Of a DNA stretch of 64,000 bases, positions 36,449-44,100 are shown in pieces. The notes beneath the pieces are model-generated. The model did no database searches, had not been told where the DNA came from, and saw nothing but the letters and a program-made list of their open reading frames with translations. The DNA is from Crenothrix polyspora (GTDB taxonomy: Bacteria > Pseudomonadota > Gammaproteobacteria > Methylococcales > Methylomonadaceae). The first letter of the stretch is position 1, and every line of letters starts with the position of its first letter. The translations under genes were made by a program, and so were the position numbers. The stretch is taken from contig NZ_FUKI01000057.1 of the NCBI RefSeq assembly GCF_900163755.1, positions 5,247 through 69,246 of the forward strand, read 5' to 3'.

Positions 36449-37528
36449 TTACAAAGAATCAACCGCGTTTAAATCTGAAAACGCCTGTTCCAAACGGGTC
36501 ACAATGCTGACTTCACTAGCACGTTGCCATACACGCGGGTCATAGTATTTTTTGTTCGGTTTGTCATCGCCATCTGGGTTGCCGATCTGGCCTTGCAGAT
36601 AGCCTTCATTCTTTATGTAGAACTGTCTAATACCGTCCCAAGCTGCCCATTGGGTGTCGGTATCAATGTTCATTTTGATAACGCCGTAGCTGATCGATTC
36701 GCTGATTTCTTGTTCAGAAGAGCCAGAACCACCGTGGAAAACAAAATTCAGGGTATTGGTAGGCACGCCGTATTTTTCAGACACATACGCTTGTGAATTG
36801 GCCAAGATAGTCGGTGTCAGTTTAACATTGCCTGGCTTATACACGCCATGCACGTTACCGAAAGACGCTGCAATGGTAAAACGTGGGCTGATTTTACTGA
36901 GTTCTTCATAGGCATACGCAACATCTTCAGGTTGTGTATACAACAAAGAATGGTCTAAACCACTGTTGTCTACGCCATCTTCTTCGCCACCGGTGACACC
37001 TAATTCAATTTCCAACGTCATGTCCATTTTAGACATGCGTTTTAGGTATTCGCCACAAATTTCAATATTTTCTTTCAGGCTTTCTTCAGAAAGATCAAGC
37101 ATGTGTGAACTGAACAACGGTTTGCCGGTTGCAGCAAAGTGTTTTTCACCGGCATCTAACAGCCCGTCTATCCAAGGCAATAATTTTTTAGCGGCATGGT
37201 CGGTATGCAAAATAACCGGTACGCCGTAAGCTTCTGCCATAGCGTGTACATGTTGTGCGCCAGAAATAGCGCCCAAAATAGCTGCTTGCTGGCCTTCTGC
37301 TTTAAGGCCTTTACCGGCAACATACTGTGCGCCGCCATGCGAAAATTGAATGATAACTGCCGACTTAACCTTGGCAGCGGCTTCTAAAACCGCATTGATT
37401 GAGCCGGTGCTGATCACGTTAACCGCCGGTAATGCCATTTTGTTTGCTTTGCAAATGGCAAATATTTTTTGCACATCTTCACCGGTGACAACGCCGGGCT
37501 TCACTACATCTAAAATTTTCTGTGACAT
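36449..37528 (-). CDS. fbaA: Class II fructose-bisphosphate aldolase
   Basis: 359 residues, the E. coli FbaA type. Zinc-binding and catalytic features are VPVILHTDHAAKKLLPW (about 104-120), LEIELGVTGGEEDGVDNS (about 172-189), FGNVHGVYKPG and FVFHGGSGSSEQEI. In RuMP metabolism it cleaves fructose 1,6-bisphosphate into triose phosphates. Last gene of the minus-strand cluster, separated from tal by a hairpin, so it may have its own promoter. Confidence 0.95.
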   Translation of the reverse strand: MSQKILDVVKPGVVTGEDVQKIFAICKANKMALPAVNVISTGSINAVLEAAAKVKSAVIIQFSHGGAQYVAGKGLKAEGQQAAILGAISGAQHVHAMAEAYGVPVILHTDHAAKKLLPWIDGLLDAGEKHFAATGKPLFSSHMLDLSEESLKENIEICGEYLKRMSKMDMTLEIELGVTGGEEDGVDNSGLDHSLLYTQPEDVAYAYEELSKISPRFTIAASFGNVHGVYKPGNVKLTPTILANSQAYVSEKYGVPTNTLNFVFHGGSGSSEQEISESISYGVIKMNIDTDTQWAAWDGIRQFYIKNEGYLQGQIGNPDGDDKPNKKYYDPRVWQRASEVSIVTRLEQAFSDLNAVDSL

Positions 37529-37648: not shown

Positions 37649-38635
37649 TTAACCTTCCAAACTGGCCAAACGAGCGGATAACAATTCTTCCAAAGCTTCC
37701 AGGGCTTTTTCAAAGCCTACGATACCTTCAGCCAATTTATCAGTTGCCATGCGATTTTCCGCATGCATACTGTCAAAGGTAGCTTTATCCATAGCGATTT
37801 TTTCGATAGGCATAGCCGCCGCTTTTGCTGGGTCAAGCTTGCGTGGCAAATCCGCTTCGGTGGCTTGCAATTCAGCCAATAAAGACGGTGCAATCGTCAA
37901 TAAATCACTGCCAGCCAATTCGGTAATTTCGCCAATGTTACGGAAGCTTGCGCCCATTACTTCGGTTTTGTAACCAAATTTCTTGTAATAATTGTAAACG
38001 TCAGTGACTGACACTACGCCTGGATCTTCATTGGCAGGATAAGAATCACGGCCAGTATCTTTTTTATACCAATCCAAAATACGACCCACGAAAGGCGAAA
38101 TCAGCGTGATGCCGTTTTCAGCGCAGGCAATCGCCTGATGCAAACCAAACAACAAGGTCAAGTTGCAGTGTATGCCTTCTTTTTCCAACACGGCAGCTGC
38201 TTGAATACCTTCCCAAGTAGAAGCGATTTTTATTAAAATACGATCAGAATCAACGCCATTTGCCACATATTGGGCAATAATTTCACGGCCTTTAGCAATC
38301 GTCGCTTCCGTATCGTAAGATAAACGCGCATCTACTTCAGTGGAAACGCGACCTGGAATAATTTCCAGTATTTTAAGGCCAAAAGACACCGCCAAACGGT
38401 CAAACGCCAAGTTAGCCACTTCAGCAGCAGATGCGTCTGCACCTAAACTTGCGCGTGCCGCTTTTAAAGTATCGTCTACAATACCTTGGTATTGCGGCAT
38501 TTGTGCCGCAGCGGTAATTAATGACGGGTTAGTGGTCGCATCTTGTGGCTTAAATTTTTCAATCGCCTCAATATCGCCGGTATCAGACACGACTACAGTC
38601 ACTTCTCTGAGTTGTTCCAACAAATTCTTTGCCAT
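37649..38635 (-). CDS. tal: Transaldolase
   Basis: 328 residues, TalB-type. Catalytic lysine in [17 protein letters not shown] (Lys about 136), with DATTNPSLI (about 33-41), [14 protein letters not shown] and [17 protein letters not shown] motifs. It transfers dihydroxyacetone units between sugar phosphates and regenerates ribulose 5-phosphate in the RuMP cycle. Separated from the KYL-repeat genes upstream by a 257-base gap with a hairpin. Confidence 0.95.
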
Positions 38636-38892: not shown

Positions 38893-40014
38893 CTAAGATG
38901 CCGCTGTACTATTACGAAGATACTTAGCCACACCTGTCACAGCCTCTTGACCTGCTGGTATAAATTCACCTTCTAGCAGTTTAGTTCGACTGTGTTTTTC
39001 TAAATAACGAGACAGCCCTGTTGTGCCTGGTTCAAAATTGACAACAATGATGTTGCTTTGTTTGATGTCAGCAAGCGCTGTCGCTTGCACAGCCAAATAT
39101 TTAGCAACTTTGCTTTCTAATGGTTTGGCTTTAACATTGCCAGCTTCTTTAATAAGGTATTTCTCAACACCGCTGACCACAGGATACACCCGCGCAGGCA
39201 AACTGGCTTGCGATTTCAGGTATTTACTGACACCACTGACAACTGGCCTGGGTATGATACTACGCTGCTGCAAAGCAACATATTTGTCAACGCCGCTTTG
39301 CGGTGGCCGTTTTTTTTCTGCAATCAGCAGCTTAGCTAAATACTTGGCAACACCGCTGGCACCTGGTTTCCCCGCCGCACGCTTTGCTTGTTGTTGGCTA
39401 TATTTTTCAACGCTAGTTAATACTGAGTCATCTTGCGTAACTAACGGCTCTGTGACAACAGATGCAGCAACTAAGGCCGCTTCTGCTTTGTCTTGGGCAA
39501 GTTTGGCTTCTTGCACAACAAAACGGGCAATAATCGCAGCGGCCGCAGTTTTACGAGCAGCGCAGTCCTTCTCCGCCTGATATTTAGCCACGCCTGTTAA
39601 ACGCGTAATAGGCTGAGCTTCAACATCTTGCTTAGCAAGATAGTTTGCCACACTGCTTAGCTTAACCGCCGTAACCGGAACTTCAGTTTTCAGTTTGACA
39701 GTATATTTTGCAACACCGGTCATAGCAGGGCTTGCCCTGTCAATAACCGCTTGTTTAAGCAAATACTTAGCAACACTGGTTATAGGTGATGACAGGTCTT
39801 TTTTCCGTAAATACTTACCCACCGATGACACGGTTTGCATAGTCTCCATGTACTTGGAAACTCCAGTAACAGATGGCCGAGTCGCCAAATATCTCGCCAC
39901 ACCGGTCACTTTATTGCTAGGATTAACAGCAACCAAAAAATTCTCCTGGCTTTCAATCGGTTTACGACGAGATAACGATTTATCGATTAAATCGATTGCG
40001 CGACTGCGTGCCAT
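38893..40014 (-). CDS. Soluble KYL-repeat protein (15 copies of a TGVxKYL motif), possible scaffold
   Basis: 373 residues, basic, no signal peptide or membrane segment. It carries 15 copies of a short motif with consensus [TS]-[GS]-V-x-[KR]-Y-L-x-[KR]; the tyrosines are at 42, 55, 68, 84, 104, 125, 145, 205, 225, 245, 265, 286, 306, 337 and 365. Most spacings are 20 or 21. In the 145-205 gap, IIARFVV puts a phenylalanine at 165, a decayed unit in register. Between motifs the sequence is variable, Pro/Lys/Ala-rich and probably disordered. I do not recognise a family. GGAG eight bases before the ATG lies in the last codons of the membrane KYL gene, so translation is coupled. Position in the RuMP cluster suggests a multivalent linker for its enzymes (inference). 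Confidence 0.85.
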   Translation of the reverse strand: MARSRAIDLIDKSLSRRKPIESQENFLVAVNPSNKVTGVARYLATRPSVTGVSKYMETMQTVSSVGKYLRKKDLSSPITSVAKYLLKQAVIDRASPAMTGVAKYTVKLKTEVPVTAVKLSSVANYLAKQDVEAQPITRLTGVAKYQAEKDCAARKTAAAAIIARFVVQEAKLAQDKAEAALVAASVVTEPLVTQDDSVLTSVEKYSQQQAKRAAGKPGASGVAKYLAKLLIAEKKRPPQSGVDKYVALQQRSIIPRPVVSGVSKYLKSQASLPARVYPVVSGVEKYLIKEAGNVKAKPLESKVAKYLAVQATALADIKQSNIIVVNFEPGTTGLSRYLEKHSRTKLLEGEFIPAGQEAVTGVAKYLRNSTAAS

Positions 40015-40017
40015 CTA

Positions 40018-40656
40018 TTATCTCCGATTACGTAGGTATTTTTCAACGCCGGTAGCCGCGCTAGCTTTTACCGATTGTACGTGTTTGTCCAAATAACGGC
40101 TCACACCGGTACCAGAGGCTTTACTCAAATATTTAGCAACACCAGTCAATCCACCGCCGCCGTTCGACTTAGCTGCGCTAGAAGGCGCGGCAGCAGAGTT
40201 GGCAGATTTTGTACATTTACCACAGTTGCGACTTCTAAAAAAGGCAACACCACCTAAAGCCATTACCACCAAACCAATCAAATAACTGGTTAACGTATCA
40301 GCTGGCGCGGCTGCGGCATCAGGTGCGGCACTTGCTGCTGCGGAACTAACAGTTGAATCTACTGAAGCGCTCGCTGGCATTTTGCTGGGTTTATAGTCAG
40401 CATCATAATAAATAACTTCTGATTTATGGGTAGCCGCAGGATATTTATCATCTGAAGCAGAGCTTTCTGCTTTAGCCGCTGCTGGTGCAGTTTGGCTGCT
40501 GGTTGCAGATTTGCTGTCTTTGGCGATGTAGGCATCATCCGAATACACCACGGACGGTTGGAAATCTGCAGCCGGATATTGATCATCAGCACAAACAATG
40601 CCGCTACTCAACACTAACACGGCTAATAGACCATTTTTAAAATTATTCTTTTTCAC
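40018..40656 (-). CDS. Membrane-anchored KYL-repeat protein (3 motifs on predicted cytoplasmic tail)
   Basis: About 212 residues from GTG 40656 (AGGTG six bases before); GTG 40665 is an alternative. A signal-peptide-like N-terminus (NGLLAVLVLSSGIVCA) precedes ~100 low-complexity Ala/Ser residues with two copies of a DD-x-YPAA...V-x-Y-x-D-x-x-Y unit. One membrane segment follows (SYLIGLVVMALGGVAFF, about 124-140), then basic residues and CGKC. A Gly-rich linker leads to three KYL motifs, LTGVAKYLSK, GTGVSRYLDK and ATGVEKYLRN, ending RR. The positive charge after the segment predicts a cytoplasmic tail. It shares its motif with the downstream soluble protein, three bases away, so the two very likely work together. 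Confidence 0.85.
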   Translation of the reverse strand: MKKNNFKNGLLAVLVLSSGIVCADDQYPAADFQPSVVYSDDAYIAKDSKSATSSQTAPAAAKAESSASDDKYPAATHKSEVIYYDADYKPSKMPASASVDSTVSSAAASAAPDAAAAPADTLTSYLIGLVVMALGGVAFFRSRNCGKCTKSANSAAAPSSAAKSNGGGGLTGVAKYLSKASGTGVSRYLDKHVQSVKASAATGVEKYLRNRR

Positions 40657-40684
40657 GTTGTTCACCTATGAGTCAAAAGAAGTG

Positions 40685-40721
40685 GTGAGTGTTGTTAAAG
40701 CGGCGCTTCAACAACACTCAC
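40685..40721 (-). terminator. Hairpin between tkt and the KYL-repeat genes
   Basis: 12-bp perfect stem GTGAGTGTTGTT / AACAACACTCAC with a 13-base loop, 40 bases past the tkt stop and about 30 bases before the KYL membrane gene. It may separate or attenuate KYL expression relative to tkt. Confidence 0.7.
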
Positions 40722-40761
40722 CTAATGGTATGTCGTAAGTTATTCTCGTATGGCCTTAGAA

Positions 40762-42756
40762 TTAAAGCACCATTTCAACGTGTTTTACCACGTTGTCAAC
40801 GGTAAAACCGAATTCTTTGAACAAATCACCCGCAGGTGCAGATTCACCAAAACGATCCAAACCGACAATCTTGCCATTCGTGCCAACATATTTCCACCAA
40901 CCATCGGTGACACCCGCTTCAACCGCAACGCGTTGAGTAACACACGCAGGTAAAACAGACTCACGGTAAGCCGCGTCTTGTGCATCGAAAATATTGGTAG
41001 ATGGCATGGAAACCACACGAATCTTTTTACCCGCAGCTTTCAATTGTTCAGCTGCTTTCACAGCCAATTCAACTTCAGAACCGGTGGCAATAATAATTGC
41101 ATCAGGTTGGCCATCGGTATCAACCAACACATAAGCACCGCGTGAAATCGCCGCAATTTGTGCTGGCGTGCGTGGCATGTGCGGTAAGTTTTGACGTGAG
41201 AATACCAAAATAGACGGGCCATTTTGACGTTCAATTGCAGCCTTCCAAGAAATAGTGGTTTCCACCGCATCACACGGACGCCACACTTGAATACCTGGAA
41301 TCAATCGCAAGGTTGCTGTTTGCTCAACCGGTTGATGAGTCGGACCGTCTTCGCCAAGGCCGATAGAGTCATGGGTATACACGAAAATAGAACGTATCTT
41401 CATTAATGAAGCCATACGCAAAGCGTTACGCGCATATTCCGAGAACATCAGGAAGGTTGCGCCAAACGGGATAACGCCGCCGTGCAATGCCAAACCGTTC
41501 ATGATGGCTGACATACCAAACTCACGTACACCGTAATTGATGTAGTTAGCGTCAGGCTTGTTAGCACGCATGGGTTTATAACCTTTCCATTCGGTCATAT
41601 TGGAACAACCCAAATCCGCAGAACCACCAAAAATTTCTGGCAATAAATCGGCAAAACCTTGGATAGCCGCCAAAGAAGACAACCGTGTTGCGGTGGTTTT
41701 AGCTTCTGCATTGACCGCTGTTACAAATGCTTCTGCATCAGCCGCCCACGTAGCAGGTAAATCACCTGCCATACGGCGAGTAAATTCACTGGCTAGTTCT
41801 GGGTGCGCCGCTTGATAGGCGGCAAATTTTGTATCCCACGCTTGTTCAGCAGCAGCGCCTTTGGCTTTACCATCCCAACCCGCATACACTTCAGCAGGCA
41901 CCTCAAACGCACCGTATTTCCAGCCTAACGCTTCTTTAGTCAGATCAACCTCTGGCTGGCCTAATGCCGCACCGTGACAGGCATGGCTACCGGCTTTATT
42001 AGGTGAACCAAAACCGATAATAGTTTTACAGCAAATCATGCTCGGTTTATCAGTCACCGCGTGAGCCGCTTTGATGGCATCGGCAATGGCTTCTGGATTA
42101 TGGCCGTCAACGTCAGCAATCACATGCCAACCGTAAGACTCAAAACGCATCGGGGTATTGTCGGTAAACCAGCCATCAACGTGACCGTCAATAGAAATAC
42201 CGTTGTCATCCCAGAACGCAATCAAGTTGCCTAAACCGAGCGTGCCCGCCAATGAACAGGCTTCATGCGAGATACCTTCCATCAAACAACCATCACCTAA
42301 AAACGCATAGGTTTTATGGTTGACGATGTCGTGGCCGTCTCTATTAAACTGTGCAGCCAAGGCTTTTTCAGCAATAGCCATGCCGACCGCGTTGGTGATA
42401 CCCTGGCCTAATGGGCCAGTAGTGGTTTCTACGCCAGGCGCATAACCGTATTCAGGGTGACCCGCTGTTCTGGAATGCAACTGACGAAATTGCTTCAAGT
42501 CATCAATGGACAAATCATAACCCGCCAAGTGCAACAGCGAATAGATCAACATGGATCCATGACCATTTGACAGCACAAAACGGTCACGGTTTGACCAGCT
42601 TGGGTTGGTCGGATTATGACTCATGAAGTCATTCCATAATACTTCAGCAATGTCCGCCATCCCCATCGGGGCGCCCGGATGTCCAGAGTTTGCCTTTTGT
42701 ACGGCATCCATGCTCAAAGCGCGTATGGCGTTCGCTAATTCTCGACGCGAAGTCAT
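40762..42756 (-). CDS. tkt: Transketolase
   Basis: 664 residues. Thiamine diphosphate binding is shown by [32 protein letters not shown] (about 154-185), with the [12 protein letters not shown] (about 24-35) and [18 protein letters not shown] motifs at the N-terminus and [17 protein letters not shown] (about 465-481) in the pyrimidine domain. It moves two-carbon units in the rearrangement part of the RuMP cycle. Length and motifs match TktA. Confidence 0.96.
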
Positions 42757-42906: not shown

Positions 42907-43440
42907 TTACTCCAAGTTAGCGTGACGCTCTCTCATTAACTCTTCGGTAATTCCCTTGTCGTGAATGATGTGAGACACCGTTGCTTCCAGGAATACCAAG
43001 GTGGACAGCTCAAACACTGTACCCATTGGCATACCCAAAAGTTTGCCGTATTGATCGGCACTACCAATAGTAAATACAGCCTCGGCCATATCACCAATAG
43101 TAGAACTGCTTTTCGCAGAGATCAAAATAATGCTGGCACCTACTTTTTTAGCACTCTTGGTGAATGCAATCAATTGCTCTGTTTCACCAGAGCCAGAGAT
43201 AATTATCAGTAAGTCGCCGCTCTTAATGCTGGGTGTAACCACTTCACCAACAACACTGACATCGTAACCGCTGTGTACCAGTCTCATTGCAAAAAAGTTA
43301 CCCACCAGCTTAGAACGACCTGCACCGGCAATATAAATACGCTTAGCAGCATCAAGAAGCTGCGTCAGCTTTCCATCATACGAACTATCGGTTGCCTCAA
43401 GAATACTTGAAATTTTGTCTATGATAAGCTTCTGATGCAT
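42907..43440 (-). CDS. hxlB: 6-phospho-3-hexuloisomerase
   Basis: 177 residues, SIS-domain enzyme converting hexulose 6-phosphate to fructose 6-phosphate, the second step of formaldehyde fixation. SIS features are IYIAGAGRSKLVGNFFAMRLVHSGYDVSVVGE (about 35-66) and LLIIISGSGETEQLI (about 76-90), then the PMGTVFELSTLVFLEA segment. 18 bases separate it from hps, so both belong to one operon. Confidence 0.95.
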   Translation of the reverse strand: MHQKLIIDKISSILEATDSSYDGKLTQLLDAAKRIYIAGAGRSKLVGNFFAMRLVHSGYDVSVVGEVVTPSIKSGDLLIIISGSGETEQLIAFTKSAKKVGASIILISAKSSSTIGDMAEAVFTIGSADQYGKLLGMPMGTVFELSTLVFLEATVSHIIHDKGITEELMRERHANLE

Positions 43441-43458: not shown

Positions 43459-44100
43459 TTATACAGCGTCAACCAATTCACGAATTTCACGCGCTGATTC
43501 AGCAGGTGATGGCGCACCGTAGATAGCTGCACCGACAACGATAATGTTCGCGCCTGCTCTAACTACGTCTTGTACGGTAGATTGTTTAATACCACCCGCC
43601 ACTGAAATTCTAACGGGCAAACCTAATCTAGCGATGTCATTCAAATCACCAAATGGCGTGTCACCAGCCGCTTGAGCGTCAAGACCTGTGTGAATACCGA
43701 CAATTTGAGCGCCAGCTTCTGCTGTTGCGCGTGCGCAAGCTACTTTGTCAGACACGTTGATCAAGTCGATTTGCGCTTCAGCACCGTGTGCATTGGCCGC
43801 TTTAATAACACCTTTGCAAGTTGCAAGACCAGATACACCTAAAACGGTGCAAATGTCCGCGCCAGCAGCGTAAAATGGTGTGGCTTCGTATTCGCCAGCG
43901 TCCATCGTTTTTAAGTCAACCAACAATAATTTGTCTGGGAATTTAGCTCTTAATGCTTTAACCAGATTAACACCGTTGTGTTTAATGCAAGGTGTGCCGA
44001 TTTCAAAAATATCAACGTGTGGCGCAACTTGCTCTGCAAGCGCAACGGTTGCGTCAAAATCCAAAGAGTCTAAAGCCATTTGAATTAAAGGTCTTGCCAT
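43459..44100 (-). CDS. hxlA: 3-hexulose-6-phosphate synthase
   Basis: 213 residues from ATG 44100, a TIM-barrel enzyme of the orotidine-decarboxylase superfamily that condenses formaldehyde with ribulose 5-phosphate. Motifs: MARPLIQMALDSLDF, EIGTPCIKHNGV (about 32-43), LLVDLKTMDAGEYEA (about 57-71), QIVGIHTGLDAQAAG and VRISVAGGIKQSTV. GGAG nine bases before the start supports it; a longer open frame upstream runs into the promoter and is not used. Defines the organism as an RuMP user. Confidence 0.96.
   Translation of the reverse strand: MARPLIQMALDSLDFDATVALAEQVAPHVDIFEIGTPCIKHNGVNLVKALRAKFPDKLLLVDLKTMDAGEYEATPFYAAGADICTVLGVSGLATCKGVIKAANAHGAEAQIDLINVSDKVACARATAEAGAQIVGIHTGLDAQAAGDTPFGDLNDIARLGLPVRISVAGGIKQSTVQDVVRAGANIIVVGAAIYGAPSPAESAREIRELVDAV

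Follow-up and report, generated by a model that had tools for sequence, protein, structure and literature searches.

KylA and KylB, repeat proteins in the ribulose monophosphate cluster of Crenothrix polyspora, as a candidate multivalent linker and membrane tether for formaldehyde fixation

The stretch of DNA analysed here, hereafter called the window, covers 64,000 nucleotides of Crenothrix polyspora (contig NZ_FUKI01000057.1, positions 5,247 to 69,246), and the analysis concerned two adjacent genes in it, kylA and kylB, which lie inside a gene cluster for the ribulose monophosphate (RuMP) pathway of formaldehyde fixation and code for proteins that share one short repeated motif, the KYL motif. 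Both genes were found on the minus strand where an initial annotation of the sequence had placed them, with matching open reading frames and a gap of 3 bases (40015-40017), and its description of the surroundings, between tkt and tal with hps-phi and fba in the same cluster, was also borne out, all of these genes being on the same strand in the order hps-phi-tkt-kylB-kylA-tal-fba. The hps gene was the sole match in the source genome at E <= 1e-20, and solved structures among the HPS relatives include 3ajx and 3f4w; the names phi, tkt, tal and fba follow the initial annotation and are presumed. The genes of the cluster are as follows.

43459..44100, minus strand: hps, 3-hexulose-6-phosphate synthase (HPS), the proposed client of the motif
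42907..43440, minus strand: phi, 6-phospho-3-hexuloisomerase (PHI)
40762..42756, minus strand: tkt, transketolase (Tkt)
40018..40665, minus strand: kylB, one-pass membrane protein of 215 amino acids from the first GTG (reading frame and 20-row alignment); a second GTG at 40656, where the initial annotation had let the gene begin, is an alternative start
38893..40014, minus strand: kylA, soluble basic repeat protein of 373 amino acids with 15 KYL motifs (reading frame and homologues)
37649..38635, minus strand: tal, transaldolase (Tal)
36449..37528, minus strand: fba, fructose-bisphosphate aldolase

The results showed that the motif is far more frequent in both proteins than composition would give. 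KylA has 14 copies of the pattern [TS][GSAK]V.[KRN]Y and KylB has 3, in comparison to means of 0.016 and 0.018 in shuffled sequences (2000 shuffles each), and a search of all six frames of the whole window gave 20 copies, 17 within the KylA and KylB reading frames and the remaining 3 in frames no longer than 45 codons. The initial annotation had reported 15 and 3 copies; this count holds under a loose reading of the motif that admits one TGLSRY, but the pattern that it had written down, [TS][GS]Vx[KR]YLx[KR], proved too strict, because only 4 and 2 copies fit it. From 1616 copies in 214 KYL proteins (those with at least 3 motifs in the loci retrieved), the consensus was [TS]-G-V-x-[KR]-Y-[LMVI]-x-x-Q. 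The copies began with T (0.62) or S (0.38), even though the search pattern also permitted A, E and N, position +4 was K or R in 0.99 with N also permitted, and position +9 was Q in 0.58, while the constancy of V and Y was imposed by the search pattern that fixed them. The modal spacing of the motifs was 20 residues (127 cases, loci counted). Within the two proteins of the window the following parts were distinguished.

39628..39906, minus strand: KylA motifs 1-6, at residues 37, 50, 63, 79, 99 and 120, with a helix start at each
39457..39597, minus strand: KylA motif 7 (TGVAKYQAEK) and a long predicted helix, residues 142-186
38908..39417, minus strand: KylA motifs 8-15, residues 200 to 360
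38950..38976, minus strand: KylA segment LEGEFIPAG, kept in many homologues (consensus LEGExIxA, 19 rows)
40588..40665, minus strand: KylB signal-peptide-like N terminus, about residues 1-26, judged by eye from sequence and alignment
40519..40578, minus strand: first YPA repeat of KylB (YPAADFQPxVVYxDxxY type), predicted periplasmic, with Y30, P31 and P37 invariant in 20 rows
40384..40443, minus strand: second YPA repeat of KylB, predicted periplasmic, with P76 and A77 invariant in 20 rows
40237..40296, minus strand: KylB membrane span from hydropathy, about residues 124-143
40024..40146, minus strand: KylB C-terminal tail, basic (isoelectric point, pI, 10.4) and predicted cytoplasmic, with three KYL motifs

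KylA has a pI of 9.95, and neither a signal nor a membrane span was seen in it by eye. In an AlphaFold2 model of KylA, made with 18 relatives, the mean predicted local distance difference test score (pLDDT) was 62.8 and 16 separate helices were obtained; at 15 of 15 motifs the modelled helix starts 1-2 residues past the T/S, with weak linkers in between, so that the short helices with weak linkers which the initial annotation had expected were also what this low-confidence model returned. The model, weak as it is, appears to resemble helical stickers on loose linkers rather than a folded domain. KylA in this respect resembles the Rubisco linkers, being a largely disordered protein in which one short motif recurs many times, where disorder was read from the low AlphaFold2 confidence, and it showed no Pfam repeat match and a predicted template modelling score of 0.23, unlike what a folded repeat solenoid (TPR, HEAT or ankyrin) would give. 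The relatives of KylB carry 2-5 KYL motifs on the tail, in comparison to three in the window.

No family in Pfam or NCBIfam was matched by KylA or KylB over the curated cut-off, and a search of the PDB gave one match each at chance level (E 0.11 for KylA and 3.1 for KylB), in agreement with the statement of the initial annotation that neither protein resembled a known family. A plasmid search with KylA and one KYL protein of family f10 (families, genomes and loci are referred to by our own f, G and L numbers) gave no match, and a description of KylA or KylB was not found among the listed titles and abstract openings of an open-access paper library, which lacks most subscription journals. Judged from sequence, the KYL family appears unrelated to the entries of Pfam, NCBIfam and the PDB, and only its design principle seems to be a known one.

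The distribution of the repeats was compared with that of HPS by using a profile of 15 natural three-repeat segments (A3) and the HPS profile TIGR03128 with its own cut-off. In a first look at relatives, the KylA query gave matches in 23 of 41 genomes, its own included. In the order to which the source genome belongs, A3 matched 204 and HPS was over the cut-off in 214 of the 251 genomes, and the order table, which was compiled by hand with unlisted genomes obtained by difference, gave 196 genomes with both, 18 with HPS only, 8 with repeats only and 29 with neither (Fisher p 1e-18, relatedness uncorrected). The 8 genomes with repeats only are all from f1, are assemblies of 60 to 440 contigs, and have weak or partial HPS matches, and at least one of the two f1 genomes with HPS only, G194, carries a short KYL gene that encodes two motifs. 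Among 369 genomes sampled from the class, A3 matched 6, HPS was over the cut-off in the same 6, and neither was found in the other 363. Three of the six (G000, G011 and G027) are inside the order and three (G254, G411 and G613) form family f10 outside it, which is a RuMP methylotroph by its gene content and presumably resembles Methylophaga. The repeats thus occur where the enzyme occurs, as would be expected for a scaffold and its client. The initial annotation had itself held that its scaffold idea would fail if the motif occurred mainly in genomes without RuMP genes; within the class the idea survives this comparison, and the observation is more general than the window alone. Within the order the link between KYL repeats and HPS is strong but not absolute.

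The KylB profile A1, which matched 218 of the 251 genomes, was rejected as a gauge of KYL repeats and A3 was used instead because A1 also catches YPA membrane proteins free of KYL motifs, such as the f2 and f6 matches inspected (L131 and L141). Genome G040 of f6, a seeming case of KYL repeats together with the other HPS type, was likewise set aside, since its KYL contig (L135) shares 11,200 bases at 99.955% identity with a contig (L132) of G026 from another family, f3, and is likely misbinned; it is still scored as having both in the order table. Genome G099 was not leaned on either, being the sole KYL genome of genus g39 with a KYL contig of only 4.8 kilobases (kb); its HPS is of the KYL type (79% identical to that of the window), while the five KYL-less g39 genomes have 66-68%. 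Among named sequences, 177 of 185 pattern matches to KylB were confirmed and the best 80 of these were retained, 78 of which are titled Methylococcales, Methylococcaceae or genera known as methanotrophs; of the remaining two, one is from a gill symbiont described as methanotrophic and one from a 'Gammaproteobacteria bacterium'. The nearest among these 80 is from Crenothrix polyspora RSM_CP2, with 72% identity in the best segment. Two cultured relatives, Methylovulum miyakonense HT12 (L216) and Methylobacter tundripaludum SV96 (L240), have both the match to KylB and a KYL-linked HPS in their loci.

The neighbourhood of the KYL genes was also largely retained. The order hps-phi-tkt-kylB-kylA-tal-fba recurs in f1, the f3 and f5 clusters have the KYL genes between tkt and tal, kylB is mostly directly before hps in f4, and in f10 the gene for a KYL protein of 97-187 amino acids has one hps on one side and tal on the other, a second hps and phi being located farther out. 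Genomes G004 and G011 have tandem hps-phi-tkt copies, each with a KYL gene of its own, and one cluster copy of G162 consists of only hps-phi-kylA (L207). The initial annotation had also named, as a result that would speak against it, the occurrence of the motif beside unrelated loci; for 199 of the 214 KYL proteins, a gene for an enzyme of the RuMP cluster (hps, phi, tkt, tal, fba or prk) is found within 1 kb, in loci most of which were retrieved for holding KYL or hps, so that the 1-kb figures count neighbours and not independent events, but the proteins here called KylC, a ChpA-like kinase and a few others are found elsewhere. The proteins were divided by rule into class C (CQA/CQS present), class B (a YPA repeat in the first 80 residues) and class A (the rest, which takes in 13 proteins with a membrane-like span as well as the f10 proteins), and the fraction within 1 kb was 103/112 for class A, 96/97 for class B and 0/5 for class C. 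Among the 9 class A exceptions, 3 are within 3.5 kb, 2 are near a contig end, 1 is a misfiled KylC (L202) and 3 are truly distant as far as the retrieved stretch extends.

These arrangements bear on two explanations in which no RuMP enzyme is bound. One is that the KYL proteins are operon passengers, i.e., unrelated proteins in an old conserved cluster, and vertical inheritance in one order would cover much of the co-occurrence; the KYL gene, however, stays with hps through the differing gene orders of f1, f3, f4, f5 and f10 and is copied with hps in the tandem duplications, and we regard this explanation as highly improbable. The other takes the repeats as basic amphipathic helices which coat intracytoplasmic membranes or bind nucleic acid, with the RuMP neighbourhood being secondary. 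Gammaproteobacterial methanotrophs have stacked membranes, and a basic character is seen in KylA as well as in the median pI of 9.7 over the 112 class A proteins; yet 6 of these 112 have an acidic pI, as low as 4.2, amphipathicity would not demand such strict T/S and K/R positions, and f10, with its ERYIQ variant, retains the RuMP neighbourhood, which makes this explanation improbable as well, if somewhat less so.

The comparison of the enzymes themselves pointed to HPS. An HPS tree was calculated from 72 rows chosen from 128 distinct ones, in which KYL-linked rows more than 84% identical to the window were thinned to 1 in 6, and a branch with support 99/97 put all 48 KYL-linked rows, f10 included, together on the same side. 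On the other side are one fused hps-phi of a KYL genome and 13 further rows, which come either from KYL-less genomes or from G040, the genome with the probably foreign KYL contig. The KYL label required 6 changes on this tree in comparison to 20.4 when shuffled. Within f4, the best HPS identity to that of the window was 76.6% on average (73-79%) for 26 KYL genomes in comparison to 67.3% (62-73%) for 8 KYL-less genomes (p 2e-5), while for PHI it was 71.0% in 25 KYL genomes in comparison to 69.2% in 6 KYL-less genomes (p 0.08), with overlapping ranges of 65-76% and 67-71%. Columns kept in at least 97% of the KYL-linked rows and changed in at least 2 of 4 KYL-less groups numbered 12 of 109 for HPS and 1 of 69 for PHI. 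The KYL-less genome G078 has 70% identity to the window in Tkt, 85% in Tal, 71% in PHI and only 61-62% in HPS, in comparison to 73%, 82%, 70% and 79%, respectively, for the KYL genome G072, the Tkt and Tal identities having been compared in few loci only. HPS thus diverges more than PHI where the KYL repeats are missing. Because HPS tracks the KYL repeats in the tree and, more than PHI, in the f4 identities, G078 and the conserved columns, HPS appears to be the likeliest client, and the data would point to this single client first rather than to several RuMP enzymes.

An alternative is a RuMP scaffold in which the motif is recognised by transketolase, transaldolase or PHI instead, or by more than one of these cluster enzymes. 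The KYL genes mostly adjoin tkt or tal rather than hps, chiefly in f1 loci, and the nearest enzyme gene within 1 kb was tal for 83 of 103 class A proteins and tkt for 86 of 96 class B proteins. On the other hand, tkt was not found around the KYL gene in three f10 loci, the L207 copy dispenses with both tkt and tal, PHI shows no clear difference between KYL and KYL-less genomes in f4, and G078 is alike to G072 in Tkt, Tal and PHI (the first two in the few loci compared) while its HPS is distant. We consider this explanation rather unlikely.

Three residues of HPS (L60, E110 and R166 in the numbering of window:43462-44106 with the start Met as 3), at which strands 3, 5 and 7 begin, follow the presence of KYL. 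Of 104 KYL-linked rows, L60 and R166 were each retained in 101 and E110 in all 104, and the 4 unlinked rows from KYL genomes retained all three, in comparison to 2, 3 and 1 of 20 rows from other genomes. At both 60 and 166, the 3 KYL-linked rows that deviate are the three f10 hps copies at the greater distance from the KYL gene. As a separate observation, fused hps-phi second copies without an adjoining KYL gene occur in KYL genomes (L296:8794, L297:8777 and L299:8363), and they retain the residues at 60, 110 and 166 that are typical of KYL-linked HPS.

Taken together, we propose that KylA and KylB are a multivalent linker and a membrane tether for formaldehyde fixation whose motif binds HPS, a proposal which we hold to be about evenly balanced between right and wrong. 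The motif [TS]GVx[KR]Y[LMVI]xxQ would be a helical sticker, most likely for HPS, the enzyme which captures formaldehyde; the 15 stickers of KylA, set mostly about 20 residues apart on flexible linkers, would cross-link HPS and its bound partners into a dense assembly, which the stickers on the tail of KylB would anchor to the membrane, and the periplasmic YPA repeats of KylB may hold a periplasmic partner. The anatomy and conservation of the two proteins, their co-occurrence with HPS across genomes, their neighbourhood and the divergence of HPS where KYL is missing are direct observations, and from these we infer binding of the motif to HPS, formation of a network or condensate, and tethering by KylB. 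As an interpretation of the locus, the enzyme scaffold put forward by the initial annotation is partly supported, its binding step being likewise an extrapolation, as are the gathering of several RuMP enzymes and the docking of the assembly where formaldehyde would enter the cell.

The motif was also found in proteins away from the RuMP genes, which the scaffold model of the initial annotation leaves unexplained. KylC is a protein of about 257-321 amino acids with 4-6 KYL motifs, an Ala/Pro/Lys linker, and a C-terminal domain in which C, C, C and H are invariant in 7 rows and which is zinc-binding-like. Two KylC relatives match the diatom pyrenoid component DPC2 with E 0.005-0.01 and 17-18 bits, below the cut-off of 70. 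In the source genome kylC (L069:9755-10528, G000:C108) is about 3 kb from fae (by Pfam) and from genes resembling, by eye, the tetrahydromethanopterin (H4MPT) formaldehyde pathway, but no formaldehyde gene was recognised by eye beside kylC in five other genomes, and KylC as a wider formaldehyde link was dropped for this reason. In f10, large ChpA/PilL-like Hpt-CheA kinases also carry KYL motifs, at the following places.

L175:3-2549 (G254): kinase on a contig that holds only the Hpt part; motif region 566-656, six copies of TSVERY
L176:6745-12852 (G411): kinase; motif region 836-959, five looser copies
L177:5601-11207 (G613): kinase; motif region 573-632, three copies of TSVDRY/TSVDKY

These kinases have Hpt, HATPase, CheW and receiver domains, and the motif regions are near but outside the best Hpt match. 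The KYL protein of the G254 RuMP cluster and the kinase of that genome share the variant TSVERYIQ, which would be expected if the two had a common binding partner.

Such carriers suggest that the motif could instead bind a localisation hub (polar, cytoskeletal or membrane) at which the KYL proteins position RuMP enzymes or other cargo. ChpA/PilL-like arrays are polar in other bacteria, the f10 kinases carry the motif, KylC has it without RuMP neighbours, and KylB places it at the membrane. No candidate gene for a hub was found, though no systematic search was made, and a hub would not lead one to expect that the repeats and HPS coincide exactly in the class sample, nor that divergence is specific to HPS, so that we rate this explanation as unlikely, slightly below the binding of another cluster enzyme.

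A number of results weigh against a motif that binds HPS. The KYL side of the HPS tree also holds 8 KYL-less rows, mostly on long branches, and 2 fused rows, and the KYL label changes 6 times and not once, so there is no single clean clade. The HPS of f6, G078 and G053 is a separate lineage, and the divergence may be partly due to enzyme replacement and not to loss of a site. No docking site is claimed at HPS residues 60, 110 and 166, because these residues may be barrel packing, i.e., a packed layer of the barrel. There are 18 of the 251 order genomes (8 of f4, 8 of f6 and 2 of f1) with HPS but no repeat match, so HPS does not need KYL, and since the relatives are non-independent, only a few gains and losses may underlie the association. 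Confidence in the KylA model is low, with 106 residues below a pLDDT of 50. Finally, L138, L145 and L146 hold KYL proteins away from RuMP genes in the stretch retrieved, the neighbours of KylC vary, with 0 of 5 class C proteins near a RuMP enzyme gene, and the f10 kinases away from RuMP genes are not explained by a pure enzyme scaffold unless the kinase recruits the assembly.

The binding of HPS can be extended to a bacterial counterpart of the pyrenoid, a formaldehyde-fixing condensate in gammaproteobacterial methanotrophs and some other RuMP methylotrophs, in which KylA would be the linker, HPS the cross-linked enzyme, KylB the tether with YPA repeats that maybe reach the methane or methanol oxidation machinery, KylC a zinc-binding-like adaptor, and the sticker in one methylotroph family would plug into a chemosensory kinase; we offer this wider picture only as a tentative possibility. 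Among bacteria, CsoS2 and CcmM are multivalent carboxysome organisers of Rubisco; they gather a C1-fixing enzyme, as the KYL proteins would, but they work with a protein shell. EPYC1, the Rubisco linker of the Chlamydomonas pyrenoid, has sticker variants which recur in other pyrenoid proteins, and PYCO1, a diatom Rubisco linker, has a repeated KWSPRGGS sticker that is helical when bound, cross-links Rubisco, and was met by its authors in no other protein except a short isoform (PMC10288592). The KYL motif is similar to EPYC1 in its evenly spaced helical stickers and in being common to KylA, KylB and KylC, and to PYCO1 in that a repeated short motif would cross-link one central carbon-fixing enzyme. 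It differs from EPYC1, for which binding to Rubisco in an alga was shown, in that the client in a bacterium is probably HPS and its binding is a proposal, and from PYCO1 in its unrelated motif and its presence in several proteins per genome; by Pfam and NCBIfam families, the only comparison made, the KYL proteins have no sequence relation to EPYC1 or PYCO1. Engineered assemblies of HPS, PHI and methanol dehydrogenase, made by SH3 ligand or linker fusions, raised methanol use according to a review (PMC13001265), which makes a benefit of a KYL scaffold plausible; these were man-made for the same purpose of keeping formaldehyde-using enzymes in one place, so as to remedy formaldehyde leakage in synthetic strains, and the KYL system would be a natural version. 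If the proposal is right, a natural sticker common to a linker and a tether would serve as a portable part for synthetic methylotrophy. It would also make testable how formaldehyde leakage between its source and the RuMP cycle is controlled in methanotrophs, to our knowledge an open question.

Two further features were found at the locus. An 18-pair inverted repeat (40684..40722, minus strand, z -5.4), an RNA hairpin between tkt and kylB, resembles a terminator by a simple pattern and may set the ratio of tkt to kyl; the RNA of this gap also folds in the 7 relatives tried (L031, L032, L033, L037, L048, L052 and L206), with z < -2 in 7 of 8 when the window is included and z -1.4 for L206. Long plus-strand open frames antisense to kylA (39023-39580, 185 amino acids; 39695-40096, 133 amino acids) are probably a by-product of codon use in the repeats.

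The YPA repeats were also seen apart from the KYL motif, and this part of KylB seems to have a job of its own. The source genome codes for a secreted-looking protein of 95 amino acids (L122:9290-9577, G000:C20) with two YPA repeats, no span and no KYL motifs, between apparent histidine-biosynthesis genes and an ABC transporter (by eye), and where G060 and G095 have a second copy of the cluster, a comparable short YPA protein stands in for kylB before kylA. In f2 and f6 (L131:1004-1648 and L141:9223-9867) a YPA membrane protein has an acidic tail without KYL motif, and the stretches retrieved around it hold no RuMP gene.

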